DNA of 41,655 nt from an uncultured Bacteroidales bacterium (lineage in GTDB: Bacteria > Bacteroidota > Bacteroidia > Bacteroidales > WCHB1-69). The stretch spans positions 1 to 41,655 of the forward strand of contig CAJOQK010000070.1 in assembly GCA_905236885.1 (NCBI GenBank). Reading direction: 5' to 3'. This document shows positions 17,659-32,537 of the stretch, one piece after another. Each line of letters begins with the position of its first letter. Position 1 is the first letter of the stretch. The position numbers and the translations under genes are program-made. A model generated the notes under the pieces. That model worked only from the letters and a program-made list of their open reading frames with translations. It searched no databases and was not told where the DNA came from.

Positions 17659-18273
17659 ATGGCAAGATACATAGGCCCAAAATCGAAAATAGCAAGGAAA
17701 TTCAAAGAACCCATTTACGGTCCTGACAAATATTTGGAGAAAAAGAACTATCCTCCCGGGCAGCATGGCGTGAACAAAAAGAGAGGACCCGGAAAAGTTT
17801 CGGAGTACGGTTCGCAGCTGCAGGAAAAGCAGAAGGCGAAATATACCTATGGTGTGCTGGAACGCCAGTTCAGGAACTTGTTCCACAAGGCTTCCGCCAA
17901 GAAGGGTATCACTGGTGAGATTCTTCTGCAGATGATTGAGTTCCGTCTGGACAATCTGGTCTACCGTTTGGGAATCGCCCCCACAAGGGCTGCCGCCCGC
18001 CAACTGGTTTCCCACAAGCACATTGTGGTGAACGGTAAGGTGATGAACATTCCTTCCGCCATCATGAGGGTGGGGGATGTGATTGGTGTGCGCGAACGTT
18101 CCAAATCCTTGGAGGTAATTACCGATTCTTTGGGTCGTCATAATGCCAGCCAGTACGGATGGCTTGAGTGGGATGAAAACCTAATGGCCGGTAAAATCAC
18201 CATGGTTCCTGAAAGAGACGCCATTCCTGAGAACATCAACGAACAGCTGATTGTGGATTTGTATTCAAGATAG
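17659..18273 (+). CDS. rpsD: 30S ribosomal protein S4
   Basis: [37 protein letters not shown]...[32 protein letters not shown]. Confidence 0.97.
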
Positions 18274-18299
18274 TCGTCATAATAAATAGTTTTAATATT

Positions 18300-18815
18300 A
18301 TGGAACAGAAAAAAACTTTCACCGAGGAAGAATTCAAAAGGCTGGTAAAAAATGATTTCTATCAGTCTTTGGACAGCACTTCCCAGTTATTCATTGGTGA
18401 TATCCATTTTCATGCAGCCTCCACCTACAAGGGTGAGACGCTGTTGAATAAGAATCCTGATTTGGAAAATGCATACACATTTGCATTTAATGCCTTAAAG
18501 GAGAACCAAAACAAAGTAAAGTATCAAAATGAGGAATATGATATTCTCCCTTCAAAACCAGCAGGTGGATATTCTTCATCAAACAATAATAGTTTTAACA
18601 TTAAAAAAAGTGAAAGAGTTATGAGAGATTCCAATATTGAAATTATGACTTATGCCAGGACCATTTTGAATGCTTTGGACAATATCGATGAAATAGTTGA
18701 AAACCATCAGGATGTGGAGTTCTATGACAGCTATATCCGTGACATTTCCGAAAGTATGAAAAGGTTTTCATCCAAGTTGATCGAGCGTCTGGACAATAAG
18801 AACAAAAACATGTAG
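18300..18815 (+). CDS. Hypothetical protein, 171 aa, no family recognised, located between rpsD and rpoA
   Basis: ATG 18300, complete ORF in the 600-bp gap between rpsD and rpoA; same strand; acidic/charged, Asn- and Ser-rich centre, no signal peptide or TM segment evident. Confidence 0.8.
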   Translation: MEQKKTFTEEEFKRLVKNDFYQSLDSTSQLFIGDIHFHAASTYKGETLLNKNPDLENAYTFAFNALKENQNKVKYQNEEYDILPSKPAGGYSSSNNNSFNIKKSERVMRDSNIEIMTYARTILNALDNIDEIVENHQDVEFYDSYIRDISESMKRFSSKLIERLDNKNKNM

Positions 18816-18872
18816 TTTTTTGCATGTGTGTGGTAGGTAAAAAAGAAAAATAATTATTTAAAAAAACAGAAT

Positions 18873-19874
18873 ATGGTTATAATACCTTTTCAGAAACCAG
18901 AGAAAGTACTGATGCTTGAGTCATCCGATTCTTTTGGCGTGTTTGAATTCCGTCCATTGGAACCCGGTTATGGAACAACCATCGGCAACGCTTTGAGAAG
19001 GGTATTGCTTTCATCCTTAGAAGGGTTTGCTATCACTTCTATCAAGATTGAAGGTGTGCCCCATGAGTTTTCCTCCATTCCGGGCGTAATGGAAGATGTT
19101 ACAGATATGATTTTGAACATCAAACAGGTTCGTCTGAAGGGGAAAATTGAAGATCAGACTGAGGAGAAAGTTCGTTTTGTCATTACAGGCAAGGAAGAGT
19201 TCAAGGCTGGTGACATGAACAAATTCTTAAATAGTTTCCAGGTACTCAATGAGGATCTGCATATCTGCAGCATGGAACCCAATGTGAAACTGGATATGGA
19301 GATTACCATTGACAAAGGACGCGGTTACGTGAGTGTTGAGGATAACCGGATGTTGCACAACGAACCTGACGTGATTGCCATTGACTCCATCCATACGCCC
19401 ATCAAGAATGTGATGTATCGTGTGGAGAACTATCGTGTGGAGCAGAAGACTGATTTTGAAAAGTTGATTTTTGAAATCACGACCGATGCTTCCGTACATC
19501 CCAAAGAGGCGTTGAAAAAGGCGGCCAAGGTGCTAATCCATCATTTCATTCTCTTCTCGGAGGATCGTATCACCATGAATGGTGACGAAATAGTGCTCAA
19601 TGACGAGTTTGACGAAAATGCGTTGCATATCCGTCAGATTCTGAAAACCAAACTGACGGATTTGGATCTTTCGGTCCGGGCGTTGAACTGCTTGAAATCC
19701 GCTGACTTGGAGACTTTGGGCGATTTGGTGACCATTCAGCGCAGCGCTTTGCTGAAATTCCGCAATTTCGGTAAGAAATCGTTGAATGAATTGGAAGAAT
19801 TGGTGAAATCCAGAGGCTTGGATTTCGGTATGGATATTTCAAAATATAGGTTGGATTTAGAAAAAGAAAATTAA
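18873..19874 (+). CDS. rpoA: DNA-directed RNA polymerase subunit alpha
   Basis: [60 protein letters not shown]-terminal domain [20 protein letters not shown]. Confidence 0.98.
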
Positions 19875-20474: not shown

Positions 20475-20508
20475 AATCAGGAGGGGACTTTTCCCTCCTG
20501 ATTTTTTT
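20475..20508 (+). terminator. Intrinsic terminator at the end of the ribosomal super-operon
   Basis: AATCAGGAGGG-GACTTTT-CCCTCCTGATT (11-bp perfect stem, 7-nt loop) followed by a T run. Confidence 0.93.
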
Positions 20509-23942: not shown

Positions 23943-24866
23943 TTATTTGAGAAGTTCCCAAAAACTTTCCGGCAGGCGGATATTGGGGACATGGAGGGCT
24001 GCGCGGAACAGCGGGGCAATTTCCTCCTCCAGGAACCCTGCGATGCCACAGCCGATTCGGGTCACCAGAAAAGTCAGATCCGGATGGCCTTGTGCAAAAT
24101 CAATGAATTCATCCACGTAGGGGACAATGGTCTCCACGCCGCCCTGCATTGTGGGAATTGCGTAGCTTTGTCCCTGAAGTCCTACACCTTGCCCCATGAC
24201 AGCCCCGAATTTCTTGACGGCAATGTAGGCCGCACCTCCGCCGTGCATGCCGGCCAGATTGCTTCCGAAAACAAATATCTCGTTTGCCTTCAGGGTGTTT
24301 ATCAGGTCTGGAGCGGTGCGAAGCAGCGGGGAGAAGAGCAGTTTTTCGCACTGCTGCTGCAAATGTTTCTGCCGGTCAGGATGTGCGGGCGTGTTCCAAA
24401 TCGTAGGTTCAAACGCCAGATCTTTCCACAGTTGCAATGAGGCTTTGAGCAGGATTTCGTCATGGTCAAAAGCCAGAGGCGGCAGGGTGTCAATGGGGAA
24501 CCATCTGGCCTGTCGCGCATCGTCACCACCGCTTACCGCCGAAGGTTCTGTCAGGGTGTAATAGGCGATGGAGACTACCCGTTCCCTCGGATCGCGCTGT
24601 ACGGCTGAAAATGTGCCGGATGGCAGCAGTCGGGAAACCTCCAGTCCGGTTTCCTCCTTCAATTCGCGACGGGCGGCCTCGGCAGCGGTTTCGCCAATGT
24701 TCATGAAACCTCCCGGAAAAGCCCACATGCCCTTGCAGGGTTCGTCACCACGTTCAATCAGCAATAACTGCAGTTTTCCCCCTTTGTCGCTGAATACCAC
24801 GCAGTCCGCTGCAATGGCCGGATGGGGATATTGATAGGTATAGCTCATGTTTTTGTTTTTATGCAA
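23943..24866 (-). CDS. Two-domain protein: N-terminal Nudix hydrolase + C-terminal macro-like 'FVFGSNLAGMHGGGAA' domain
   Basis: Nudix box GGFMNIGETAAEAARRELKEETGLE fits GX5EX7REUXEEXGU; C-terminal half EIFVFGSNLAGMHGGGAAYIAVKKFGAVMGQGVGLQGQSYAIPT...VTRIGCGIAGFLEEEIAPLF. Confidence 0.85.
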   Translation of the reverse strand: MHKNKNMSYTYQYPHPAIAADCVVFSDKGGKLQLLLIERGDEPCKGMWAFPGGFMNIGETAAEAARRELKEETGLEVSRLLPSGTFSAVQRDPRERVVSIAYYTLTEPSAVSGGDDARQARWFPIDTLPPLAFDHDEILLKASLQLWKDLAFEPTIWNTPAHPDRQKHLQQQCEKLLFSPLLRTAPDLINTLKANEIFVFGSNLAGMHGGGAAYIAVKKFGAVMGQGVGLQGQSYAIPTMQGGVETIVPYVDEFIDFAQGHPDLTFLVTRIGCGIAGFLEEEIAPLFRAALHVPNIRLPESFWELLK

Positions 24867-28296: not shown

Positions 28297-30018
28297 ATGA
28301 GAAAATTAAGCTTATTATTGGCATTCTTTGCGGCATGTGTTTGCGTGCAAGCCCAGAACTTTTATGAAGGTTGGGAAACGTATAACCATAGGATCGAATT
28401 GAGCAACTGGACGGTGAATGATGTGGTGACTTTGCGTCAGGCATGCGGAAAACAGGAGAAAGGATGGGTCATCAATGTGGCAGGAAACAGTGTCCTTTCG
28501 CATAATATTGATGCGCCCACCAACGGTGACACCAACAAAAACATTGTCACATTCGCCTGTGGAGGAGCCCCTAACAAAGGTACTGATTCCTGGCTGATTT
28601 CCCCTCAAATCAAAAACATTGAGGATGGTTCCTACCTGAGTTTCCATTTCATCAACTTTACCGGTAGTGAAAACAACAACCTCTATGTGCTAGTTTCCAC
28701 TACGGACAAGTCCACATCCTCCTTCAAGGTGCTGGATTCTTTTCCTGCCTACCGTAACAATGAATGGGCAGCTTACACTTACTCGTTGGCCGATTATGTT
28801 GGCAAGGATATCTATGTGGCGTTCCGCGCCTATTTTCCGCCTTCATCCGCCATGGTTGAGTTCGGAGCCCTCTACGGGTTGGACCTTATCCGTGTAGGTA
28901 GTGTCAATGAGTATGACATGCAGTTGATTGAGATGCTCTCTCCTGAGGTTCCGATGCAGAATGTGGACACGGCAGTTCCCATGACTTTCGTCGTGAAGAA
29001 CAACGGTCATGAAGTGAACGAGTTTGACCTTTGGTACATGCAGACCTCCAAAGGTTCCAGCTACATTTATGCAAAAAACTACAAGGTGAAACGTACTATC
29101 AAGACCTTGGACACCCTGCATATCAGTTTCCCGGAAAAAACAAAATTCGTCAAAGGCGGACGTGATACCGTTTGGGCTTGGGTGGATGTTCCCCAAGACA
29201 TTGACAGGAGCAACGATACCTTGCCCAAAACCATTGTAGACAACGTAAGTCCGGGAAATATCCCATATATCAACAGTTTTGATTCAGCCGCTGATATTTC
29301 AGGTATCCGTATTTATAATATTTTCAGGGATGAGTCCGCATGGAGGGATGTGATTACACCGGTGTATGCCCGTACCGGAACCGGCTGCATGGAATATGCC
29401 GGCAACACACAGTACAATGCCAACGACTGGTTCTTCACAAAACTGCTCTATTTCCCTACTGCCAACAAGAAATATGAGCTGACCTACTGGTACGGCACTT
29501 CGGATGAATCAAAACCGCAAAAGCTTGTCTCCGCATGGTCTTACCAGCAGAAATACCAGTCCCTGATGTGGGAGCTGGCATGGCATGAGAATATAAACAA
29601 CCAGGTGGCCAAGGATCAGACAGACGTGAATCGCGGTTATGTGGAGGGAAAAGCCCGTTTTACAGTGGAAAAGCCGGGTTACTATTATATCGGTTTCCAT
29701 GCAACCAGCGATGCTTCCAATGCAAAATTGTATCTGGATGATATTGATATCCATCTTGCAGTGGATGTGCAGGAAGCCGCCATTGATGAAACCGTGAACG
29801 TCTATCCCAATCCTGCACAGGACCAGTTCACCGTTTCTGCAGCCCATGCAATCCGTGAGGTGGAGGTGTACAGCACCACTGGTCAGAAAGTGTACCGGAC
29901 AATGGTTTCCGACAATCAGGTCACTATTTCTGCAAAGGATTTGGCCACAGGTCTTTACGTTGTGAAAATCCAGACCGAAAAGGGTAATGCGACGCAAAAG
30001 CTGAACATTGTCCGTTAG
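28297..30018 (+). CDS. Secreted protein with T9SS type A C-terminal sorting domain, choice-of-anchor/cleaved-adhesin-like repeats
   Basis: Signal MRKLSLLLAFFAACVCVQAQ; C-terminus VNVYPNPAQDQFTVSAAHAIREVEVYSTTGQKVYR...DLATGLYVVKIQTEKGNATQKLNIVR. Confidence 0.88.
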   Translation: MRKLSLLLAFFAACVCVQAQNFYEGWETYNHRIELSNWTVNDVVTLRQACGKQEKGWVINVAGNSVLSHNIDAPTNGDTNKNIVTFACGGAPNKGTDSWLISPQIKNIEDGSYLSFHFINFTGSENNNLYVLVSTTDKSTSSFKVLDSFPAYRNNEWAAYTYSLADYVGKDIYVAFRAYFPPSSAMVEFGALYGLDLIRVGSVNEYDMQLIEMLSPEVPMQNVDTAVPMTFVVKNNGHEVNEFDLWYMQTSKGSSYIYAKNYKVKRTIKTLDTLHISFPEKTKFVKGGRDTVWAWVDVPQDIDRSNDTLPKTIVDNVSPGNIPYINSFDSAADISGIRIYNIFRDESAWRDVITPVYARTGTGCMEYAGNTQYNANDWFFTKLLYFPTANKKYELTYWYGTSDESKPQKLVSAWSYQQKYQSLMWELAWHENINNQVAKDQTDVNRGYVEGKARFTVEKPGYYYIGFHATSDASNAKLYLDDIDIHLAVDVQEAAIDETVNVYPNPAQDQFTVSAAHAIREVEVYSTTGQKVYRTMVSDNQVTISAKDLATGLYVVKIQTEKGNATQKLNIVR

Positions 30019-30066: not shown

Positions 30067-30137
30067 ATGCATGCGCCTAATCTTCTTATTTGCTTTTTTA
30101 TTACTTTTGCAACATTTACACATTAAATGATATTGTT

Positions 30138-32537
30138 TTGGAAATAAAAAGAACATTTGATTTGTTGGATTGGATGTCAGAGAAATATGAAAAAGACGAC
30201 ATCTTGGCGTCCAAGTCCAATGGAGAATGGTTTAAATTCAGCATTACCGATTATTGCAAGTATTCCGAAATTATGAGCTATGGCTTTTACGAGCTGGGAC
30301 TCAAGAAGGGTGATAGAGTGGTTACCATCACCAACAACCGGCCTGAGTTCAACATAATTGACATGGCGTTGAGCATGTTGGGTGTGATTCATGTGCCGAT
30401 TTACCCCACACTGAGCAAAAACGAATACACCTACATAATCAATCATTCGGATGCGAAGGTGGTGATTATCGGCAATAAAACCATTTACAACAGGGTAAAA
30501 CCTGTTTTTGACACCTTTGAACATCATCCGTTAATCTATACGTTGGATAAGATTGAGGGGGAGGAGGTGCTGTTTTCGGTTTTCAAGCAGGGAATTTTTT
30601 GCCGTACAAAGGATGCGGCACTTGTGGCGGAAATCCGCAGGAGCATACAGCCGGAGGATGTGGCTACCCAAATCTACACTTCCGGAACTACCGGAACGCC
30701 AAAGGGTGTGGTGCTGACCCATGCGAACCTTGTCAGCAATTTCATGGCCCATGCCAAGGTGCAGCCAATGGATTCCCATTGCCGTGTCCTTAGTTTTCTG
30801 CCGCTTTGCCATGTGTTTGAACGGAGCATGAATTACCATTACCAGTATTTGGGCATCAGTATCTATTATGTGGACAATATGGGGCTGATTATGCAATATG
30901 CGCAGGAAATCAAGGCGCACGGCTTCTGTACGGTGCCTCGTGTGCTGGAGGTGATGCATGACAAGATTCTGGCGGCCGGAAAGGATATGAGCGGCATCCG
31001 CAAAATGATTTTCAATATGGCCGTCAAGCATGGTTATCGCTACGATTTCCATAAGAATATATGGTACAATTTGTGGCAGCGGATATACAATGTGCTGGTA
31101 TATTCAGAAATCCGAAAAAAATTCGGTGGTAACGAAATGATCATAATAAGTGGAGGTTCCGCACTGAACGAAAAACTTGCACGTCTGTTCCACGCCATGG
31201 GATTGCGTGTCTATGAGGGATACGGCCTTTCCGAATCCGGTCCGGTCATTGCGGTCAACAATCCGGTTGATGGAAGGGTGAAATTCGGCACAGTGGGGCC
31301 GCCATTGCCAATTCTTCAGCTGAAAATTGCCGAGGATGGGGAAATCATCGTCAAAAGTCCCTCTGTGATGCAGTGCTATTACAAAGATGATGATTACACA
31401 AAACTGGCCATTGATGATGAGGGTTGGTTCCACACCGGAGATGTGGGTGTTTTGGTGGACAACACCTATTTGAAAATCACAGACAGGAAAAAGGAGATTT
31501 TCAAGCTCTCCGCCGGAAAATATGTGGTTCCGCAGTATATTGAGAATAAAATGAAGGAATCGGAGTTGATTGAGAATGCGATGGTGGTTGGGGAAAACGA
31601 GAAATTCGCCTCCGCACTAATCTCTCCAAATTACAATTATCTGCATTTTTGGGCGAACAAGCATAAACTGCACTACAGGGACAATCTGGAACTGGTGCAG
31701 CTTCCGGAGGTGCAGCAACGTTTTCAAAAGGAGATTTTGCAGATTAACAAAGATTTGGCACCGCACGAACAGATAAAATGCTTCCAGCTGGTGACGGACG
31801 AATGGTCGCCCAACACAGGTGAATTGTCGCCCACGCTGAAATTGAAACGGGCTTTCCTGATGAAGAAATACAAGGATGAGATTGCCAAAATATACAACCA
31901 TGAACAGGAAAAGGAAAGCTCTCCCATGGCATTCAGCTTCAAACAGTTCAATCTTTCCCTGTTAAACTCAATCCAGGAGTTCTGGAATAAGGGCAGCGAA
32001 GCGAATGTCATTGAAGTTGAAGGCAAACGGTTCGTAAAATATATTTCACAGGAAAAAATTGAAAAGCGGGTGATGGAAATTGCGGTTGAGCTGAACAAAG
32101 CCTATGAAGGGCAAAGCCCTCTGATGCTGGTGGTGCTGAACGGTGCAATGATGTTTGCTTCCGAACTGATGAAACATCTGCATTTCCCGTTGGAGATGAC
32201 CTGCATAAAATATGTCTCCTATCAGGGCATGCAGGCGGGGAATACGGTCAAGGAGGTGATTGGTCTGCCGGAATCGTTGGAGAACCGTCGCGTGATTGTT
32301 GTGGAAGACATTGTGGACAGCGGGCAAACCATCCGTTTTTTGAGCGACAAGCTGAAGGCCTGTAAGGTGAAGGATGTGGAGGTGGTCACGCTGACTTTCA
32401 AAAGGGCGGCCTGTAAGGTTGATGTTCCCATCCGATATGTGGGGTTCGAAATCTCCAATGAATTCATCGTGGGGTATGGTATGGATTACGAACAAAAGGG
32501 AAGGCAATATCCGGACATTTATCAATATATGGCGTAA
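30138..32537 (+). CDS. Fusion protein: AMP-forming long-chain acyl-CoA synthetase (FadD-like) + hypoxanthine phosphoribosyltransferase domain
   Basis: AMP-binding motif IYTSGTTGTPKGVVLTH, YGLSESGPV, GWFHTGDVGVL, DRKKEIFKLSAGKYV; then LVVLNGAMMFASELMKHL, VIVVEDIVDSGQTIRFLSDKL (PRPP motif), FIVGYGMDYEQKGRQYPDIY in one uninterrupted frame. Start uncertain (TTG 30138 or ATG 30174). Confidence 0.88.
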   Translation: MEIKRTFDLLDWMSEKYEKDDILASKSNGEWFKFSITDYCKYSEIMSYGFYELGLKKGDRVVTITNNRPEFNIIDMALSMLGVIHVPIYPTLSKNEYTYIINHSDAKVVIIGNKTIYNRVKPVFDTFEHHPLIYTLDKIEGEEVLFSVFKQGIFCRTKDAALVAEIRRSIQPEDVATQIYTSGTTGTPKGVVLTHANLVSNFMAHAKVQPMDSHCRVLSFLPLCHVFERSMNYHYQYLGISIYYVDNMGLIMQYAQEIKAHGFCTVPRVLEVMHDKILAAGKDMSGIRKMIFNMAVKHGYRYDFHKNIWYNLWQRIYNVLVYSEIRKKFGGNEMIIISGGSALNEKLARLFHAMGLRVYEGYGLSESGPVIAVNNPVDGRVKFGTVGPPLPILQLKIAEDGEIIVKSPSVMQCYYKDDDYTKLAIDDEGWFHTGDVGVLVDNTYLKITDRKKEIFKLSAGKYVVPQYIENKMKESELIENAMVVGENEKFASALISPNYNYLHFWANKHKLHYRDNLELVQLPEVQQRFQKEILQINKDLAPHEQIKCFQLVTDEWSPNTGELSPTLKLKRAFLMKKYKDEIAKIYNHEQEKESSPMAFSFKQFNLSLLNSIQEFWNKGSEANVIEVEGKRFVKYISQEKIEKRVMEIAVELNKAYEGQSPLMLVVLNGAMMFASELMKHLHFPLEMTCIKYVSYQGMQAGNTVKEVIGLPESLENRRVIVVEDIVDSGQTIRFLSDKLKACKVKDVEVVTLTFKRAACKVDVPIRYVGFEISNEFIVGYGMDYEQKGRQYPDIYQYMA

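Follow-up and report, generated by a model that had tools for sequence, protein, structure and literature searches.

What is a complete 171-aa open reading frame (ORF) doing between rpsD and rpoA, inside the alpha operon? The window analyzed here is one 41,655-base contig of a draft MAG from an uncultured Bacteroidales bacterium (2.2 Mb, 188 contigs), and its alpha operon reads rpsM-rpsK-rpsD-[ORF]-rpoA-rplQ: the canonical order (rpsM-rpsK-rpsD-rpoA-rplQ) is kept, and its contiguity is broken at rpsD-rpoA. An earlier note on this DNA, made from the sequence alone, had described a same-strand ORF breaking this junction, and we recover it at 18300-18815 (+), running from ATG to TAG, starting 26 bp past the rpsD stop and ending 57 bp ahead of the rpoA ATG, exactly as spaced in that description. 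The genes on either side are intact: rpsD (ribosomal protein S4; 17659-18273, +) is 90% and 89% identical to its counterparts in two congeners, and rpoA (RNA polymerase alpha; 18873-19874, +) is 93% and 92% identical. The last gene of the operon, identified from its translated sequence and its position, is rplQ (ribosomal protein L17; 19876-20406, +).

The congeners, which are the two nearest species, show the same junction without the ORF. In blastn against the matching contigs of both, the window aligns as a colinear block of 16.5 kb that ends at 18266 or 18279 and as a second block of 1.46 kb that starts at 18847 or 18851, with block identities of about 80% and 84%; the rest of the ribosomal cluster is colinear with both congeners, rpsD-rpoA being the sole interruption. 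Their spacer at this point measures 36 bp (G003) or 39 bp (G001), and the ancestral spacer can still be recognized around the insert by its first 6 bp and its last 26 bp. The left remnant, TCGTCA (18274-18279, +), is identical to the 6 bases that follow rpsD in G003, whose first alignment block stops at 18279, while the right remnant (18847-18872, +), which now forms the rpoA translation-start region, aligns over its 26 bp with the spacer of the same genome. Because both spacer ends remain recognizable, the gained piece is placed at about 18280-18846 (+), the gap between the two blocks, with ends uncertain by a few bases owing to the AT-rich spacer. It amounts to 567 bp and comprises a 20-bp leader, the ORF, and a 31-bp trailer. 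The ORF is carried on a sharply bounded insertion of ~567 bp that is missing from both scorable congeners, and the extra cistron claimed for this alpha operon occupies a site that is empty in them. The fourth genome of the genus (G002), in whose draft neither rpsD nor rpoA was matched, stands outside this comparison.

A wider survey of the rpsD-rpoA junction, which the earlier note had proposed as a check, revealed no extra gene in any other genome measured. The gap spans 25 to 127 bp (median, 78 bp) in 88 other genomes of the family, counted where both genes lie adjacent on one contig, -15 to 127 bp on 80 GTDB contigs that in part overlap with these family genomes, and 7 to 126 bp in 38 more genomes sampled from the order. 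In about 100 further genomes of the order the RpsD and RpoA proteins align as one continuous stretch, which implies that the gap is small there as well. Among the GTDB contigs, the nearest named relatives are two MAGs, RUG11939 (uncultured Bacteroidetes) and UBA1195 (Bacteroidales), whose RpoA is 93% and 92% identical. De novo birth of the gene from the old spacer alone was considered and rejected, since the spacers of relatives, at most 127 bp long, are too short.

By its composition the ORF looks protein-coding, and we predict that it is translated. Its frame has no stops and a codon score of +22 bits, compared to 6 to 19 stops and scores of -61 to +10 in the other frames, and its synonymous codon choice fits that of the host genes in the window (z = 4.6). 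Random inserts of the same composition (order-2 Markov) never yielded an ORF of at least 171 aa on the same strand (0 of 20,000), so that the frame is open and coding-like beyond chance, as in an ORFan. The AT-rich middle noted earlier is real: G+C falls to 31% at 18500-18699, and GC3 is 0.47 over the first 72 residues, 0.21 over residues 73 to 120, and 0.56 over the remainder. A structured RNA was sought and rejected, as no Rfam family reached its gathering score and the matches below threshold were chance-like. The folding signal of the insert is not compelling, with z-scores of -2.2 to -2.7 against +0.6 to -1.8 in 12 of 13 comparison gene segments and +3.2 in the other. Separately, we observed a 16-nt direct repeat (15 of 16 positions identical) at 18285-18300 and 18588-18603, in the same frame and 101 codons apart, which ties the ORF leader to the AT-rich center and may reflect chance or the trace of an internal duplication. 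As a basis for a fusion origin this repeat is too weak, given that 3 of 120 dinucleotide shuffles equaled it.

Searches for relatives of the predicted protein agreed with the earlier impression that it belongs to no recognizable family. Nothing meaningful was found in Pfam, NCBIfam, PHROGs, PADLOC, or the PDB, and a tblastn search of 50,697 phage records and 72,556 plasmid records returned nothing except one plasmid match at E = 6. Scans of viral and genome contigs, which relied on exact 8-residue seeds that distant relatives would escape, gave no homolog, and overlapping sets of 104 family, 393 order, and 396 phylum genomes gave matches at chance level only, the genome of origin aside; the coverage of GTDB in these searches was about half of its species. 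Where weak protein matches (E of about 0.002 to 0.7) were inspected at their loci, they proved to be coils, low-complexity segments, or frames with stops, and were set aside as chance-like. There is no second copy in its own genome by protein or DNA, which eliminates a duplicate of a host gene. Within the databases and genomes searched, the ORF is thus without a detectable homolog outside its species.

The predicted product is a hydrophilic protein of 20 kDa with a pI of 5.3, lacking cysteine and tryptophan. A single-sequence AlphaFold2 model reached a mean pLDDT of 46, at which only the helical trend can be trusted; it places helices at residues 9-21, 45-51, 53-72, 105-135, and 144-169 around an unstructured center. 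Together with the sequence, this low-confidence model bears out a Ser/Asn-rich center and a helical C terminus, two features that had been described for the protein beforehand.

Could this protein be a lineage-specific ribosome, RNA polymerase, or assembly factor, as the earlier note suggested, one that binds S4, the 30S subunit, or the alpha subunit and has stayed in the operon so that dosages match? Its same-strand position between rpsD and rpoA, a layout suggestive of cotranscription, and its small, charged, helical product speak for such a role. However, the ORF is missing from both scorable congeners and from all other relatives tested, so that a factor of this kind would have to be dispensable elsewhere, and absence from close relatives, which the note itself had named alongside lack of translation as refuting the idea, was found in every testable relative. 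The sequence matches no known ribosomal protein or ribosome or RNA polymerase factor family, and there is no family, motif, or usable fold to suggest one. Many rRNA-binding proteins are basic, and this product is acidic. Since nothing at the junction is common to any relative, a ribosome or RNA polymerase role gains little from position alone, and the suggestion, with neither a conserved neighborhood nor a motif or fold pointer behind it, is unsupported; judged from sequence, the role is possible, and we regard such a factor as very unlikely. A newly acquired, species-specific protein wired into the alpha operon, modulating S4, the 30S subunit, or RNA polymerase alpha, strikes us as a long shot.

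Other explanations concern how the DNA came to be there. A neutral or transient insertion, whose frame is intact merely through youth and which has no selected function and will decay, would fit the presence of the ORF in one genome only and its low-complexity, AT-rich center with a GC3 unlike that of the ends. An intact frame of 171 codons with host-like synonymous codons argues against this, although such codon use points to a past as a gene and not necessarily to a present function, and we consider a purely neutral passenger unlikely. The ORF could instead have arrived with a mobile element or phage, as its cargo or as what is left of it, a possibility that includes a defense or counterdefense gene; the literature often attributes orphans of such length to these sources, and the AT-rich center is in keeping with one. 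Yet the other five frames contain no transposase or other Pfam domain, the segment lacks the terminal repeats typical of an element and is present in a single copy, and PHROGs, PADLOC, phages, plasmids, and viral contigs hold no match. An insertion sequence, with its transposase, terminal inverted repeats, and several copies, was rejected on these grounds, as was a phage or antiphage defense gene given the absence of matches to phage and defense profiles or phage sequences, and we hold cargo or a remnant of this sort to be distinctly unlikely. It might also be suspected that a chimeric contig put a foreign gene into the operon, the source being a draft MAG in many contigs and no independent genome carrying the insertion. 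The insertion, however, is internal to a 41.7-kb contig with colinear operon on both sides and retains the spacer remnants, a one-gene, same-strand chimera with two precise joints in a spacer is itself unlikely, and the codon use of the ORF is host-like; an assembly artifact is highly improbable.

We therefore favor, as probable, a real protein-coding orphan that this species, or a narrow lineage including it, acquired as one compact insertion of ~567 bp, whatever its function. The empty site, the colinearity around it, the coding statistics, the lack of homologs, and the single copy in its own genome all argue for this reading, and from its sequence the gene looks recently gained and lineage-specific. 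On the other side, the outer thirds of the ORF have a host-like GC3 that does not point to a foreign source; one MAG is the only carrier, and with no donor found, transfer is inferred from absence elsewhere. The inserted DNA would most likely have come from outside the sampled genomes, from a mobile element, a phage, or an unsampled species. Both breakpoints lie within the spacer, so that neither neighbor is damaged, and rpoA is still preceded by the final 26 bp of the ancestral sequence. The insertion was most likely tolerated because it is short, shares the strand of the operon, and introduces no terminator.

A consensus scan detected no terminator-like site between rpsD and rpoA and a strong terminator-like hairpin only after rplQ (20475-20503, +; 13 pairs and a T run). 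As no such site precedes the end of rplQ, the ORF is probably transcribed as a passenger cistron and translated from the alpha-operon mRNA, presumably from its own AT-rich start region, a layout that agrees with the earlier expectation that its position would tie its expression to the operon. Its product would be a small, acidic, mostly helical cytosolic protein with growth-linked levels, encoded by a gene that is probably accessory and nonessential.

Elsewhere in the window, an 815-aa ORF at 30090-32537 (+) runs without a stop from a long-chain acyl-CoA synthetase-like AMP-binding enzyme (residues 45-605) into a phosphoribosyltransferase (residues 654-800). G001 and G003 carry the phosphoribosyltransferase as an ORF of its own beside a second synthetase gene, and in G002 both parts fall within a single alignment in which stops are reported; the ORF in the window may be a lineage-specific gene fusion. 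The gene at 23943-24866 (-) encodes a NUDIX domain in its N-terminal half (residues 17-139), and its C-terminal half of about 160 aa has no Pfam match at 1e-5. A 573-aa protein encoded at 28297-30018 (+) carries a type IX secretion C-terminal sorting domain (Por_Secre_tail), the rest of the protein having no assignment.

An insertion this clean and coding-like, restricted to one species, would mean that even the alpha operon can accept a new cistron without visible damage. The empty site in close relatives makes this a tidy case for how young genes enter core operons, and the same case bears on whether a strong borrowed promoter helps young genes to persist. If modulation of S4, the 30S subunit, or RNA polymerase alpha were true, this would be a rare instance in which a very young gene has become part of the machinery of transcription and translation.

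Bacteria commonly harbor orphan genes whose source is unclear (PMC2447361, PMC2395238), and the present ORF resembles ORFans, or taxonomically restricted genes (PMC2447361, PMC1559721, PMC2395238), in being short, coding-like, and without detectable homologs, and in its unclear origin, possibly by transfer from an unsampled source. It differs from them in lying inside a core ribosomal-protein and RNA polymerase operon, at a point where close relatives have a well-defined empty site. A candidate S4 leader has been published ahead of the same three genes, rpsD-rpoA-rplQ, in Bacteroidia (PMC7247131); if present upstream, it would place the orphan under S4 feedback too, but no S4 leader in the window was matched with Rfam 15, and such control is only possible. 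Published insertions likewise brought new genes into the same conserved ribosomal cluster without destroying the neighbors, but the cases considered in that study, which concerns other phyla, involve known genes (tusDCB, bfd-bfr, nrdHEF, and ilv-leu), mostly between operons, and 65% of its rearrangements leave operons intact, whereas here one orphan sits within the alpha operon. Orphan genes and ribosomal-cluster insertions are already known, and what stands out here is the unusually conserved insertion point, which makes this locus a further example at such a point and not a new kind of system.
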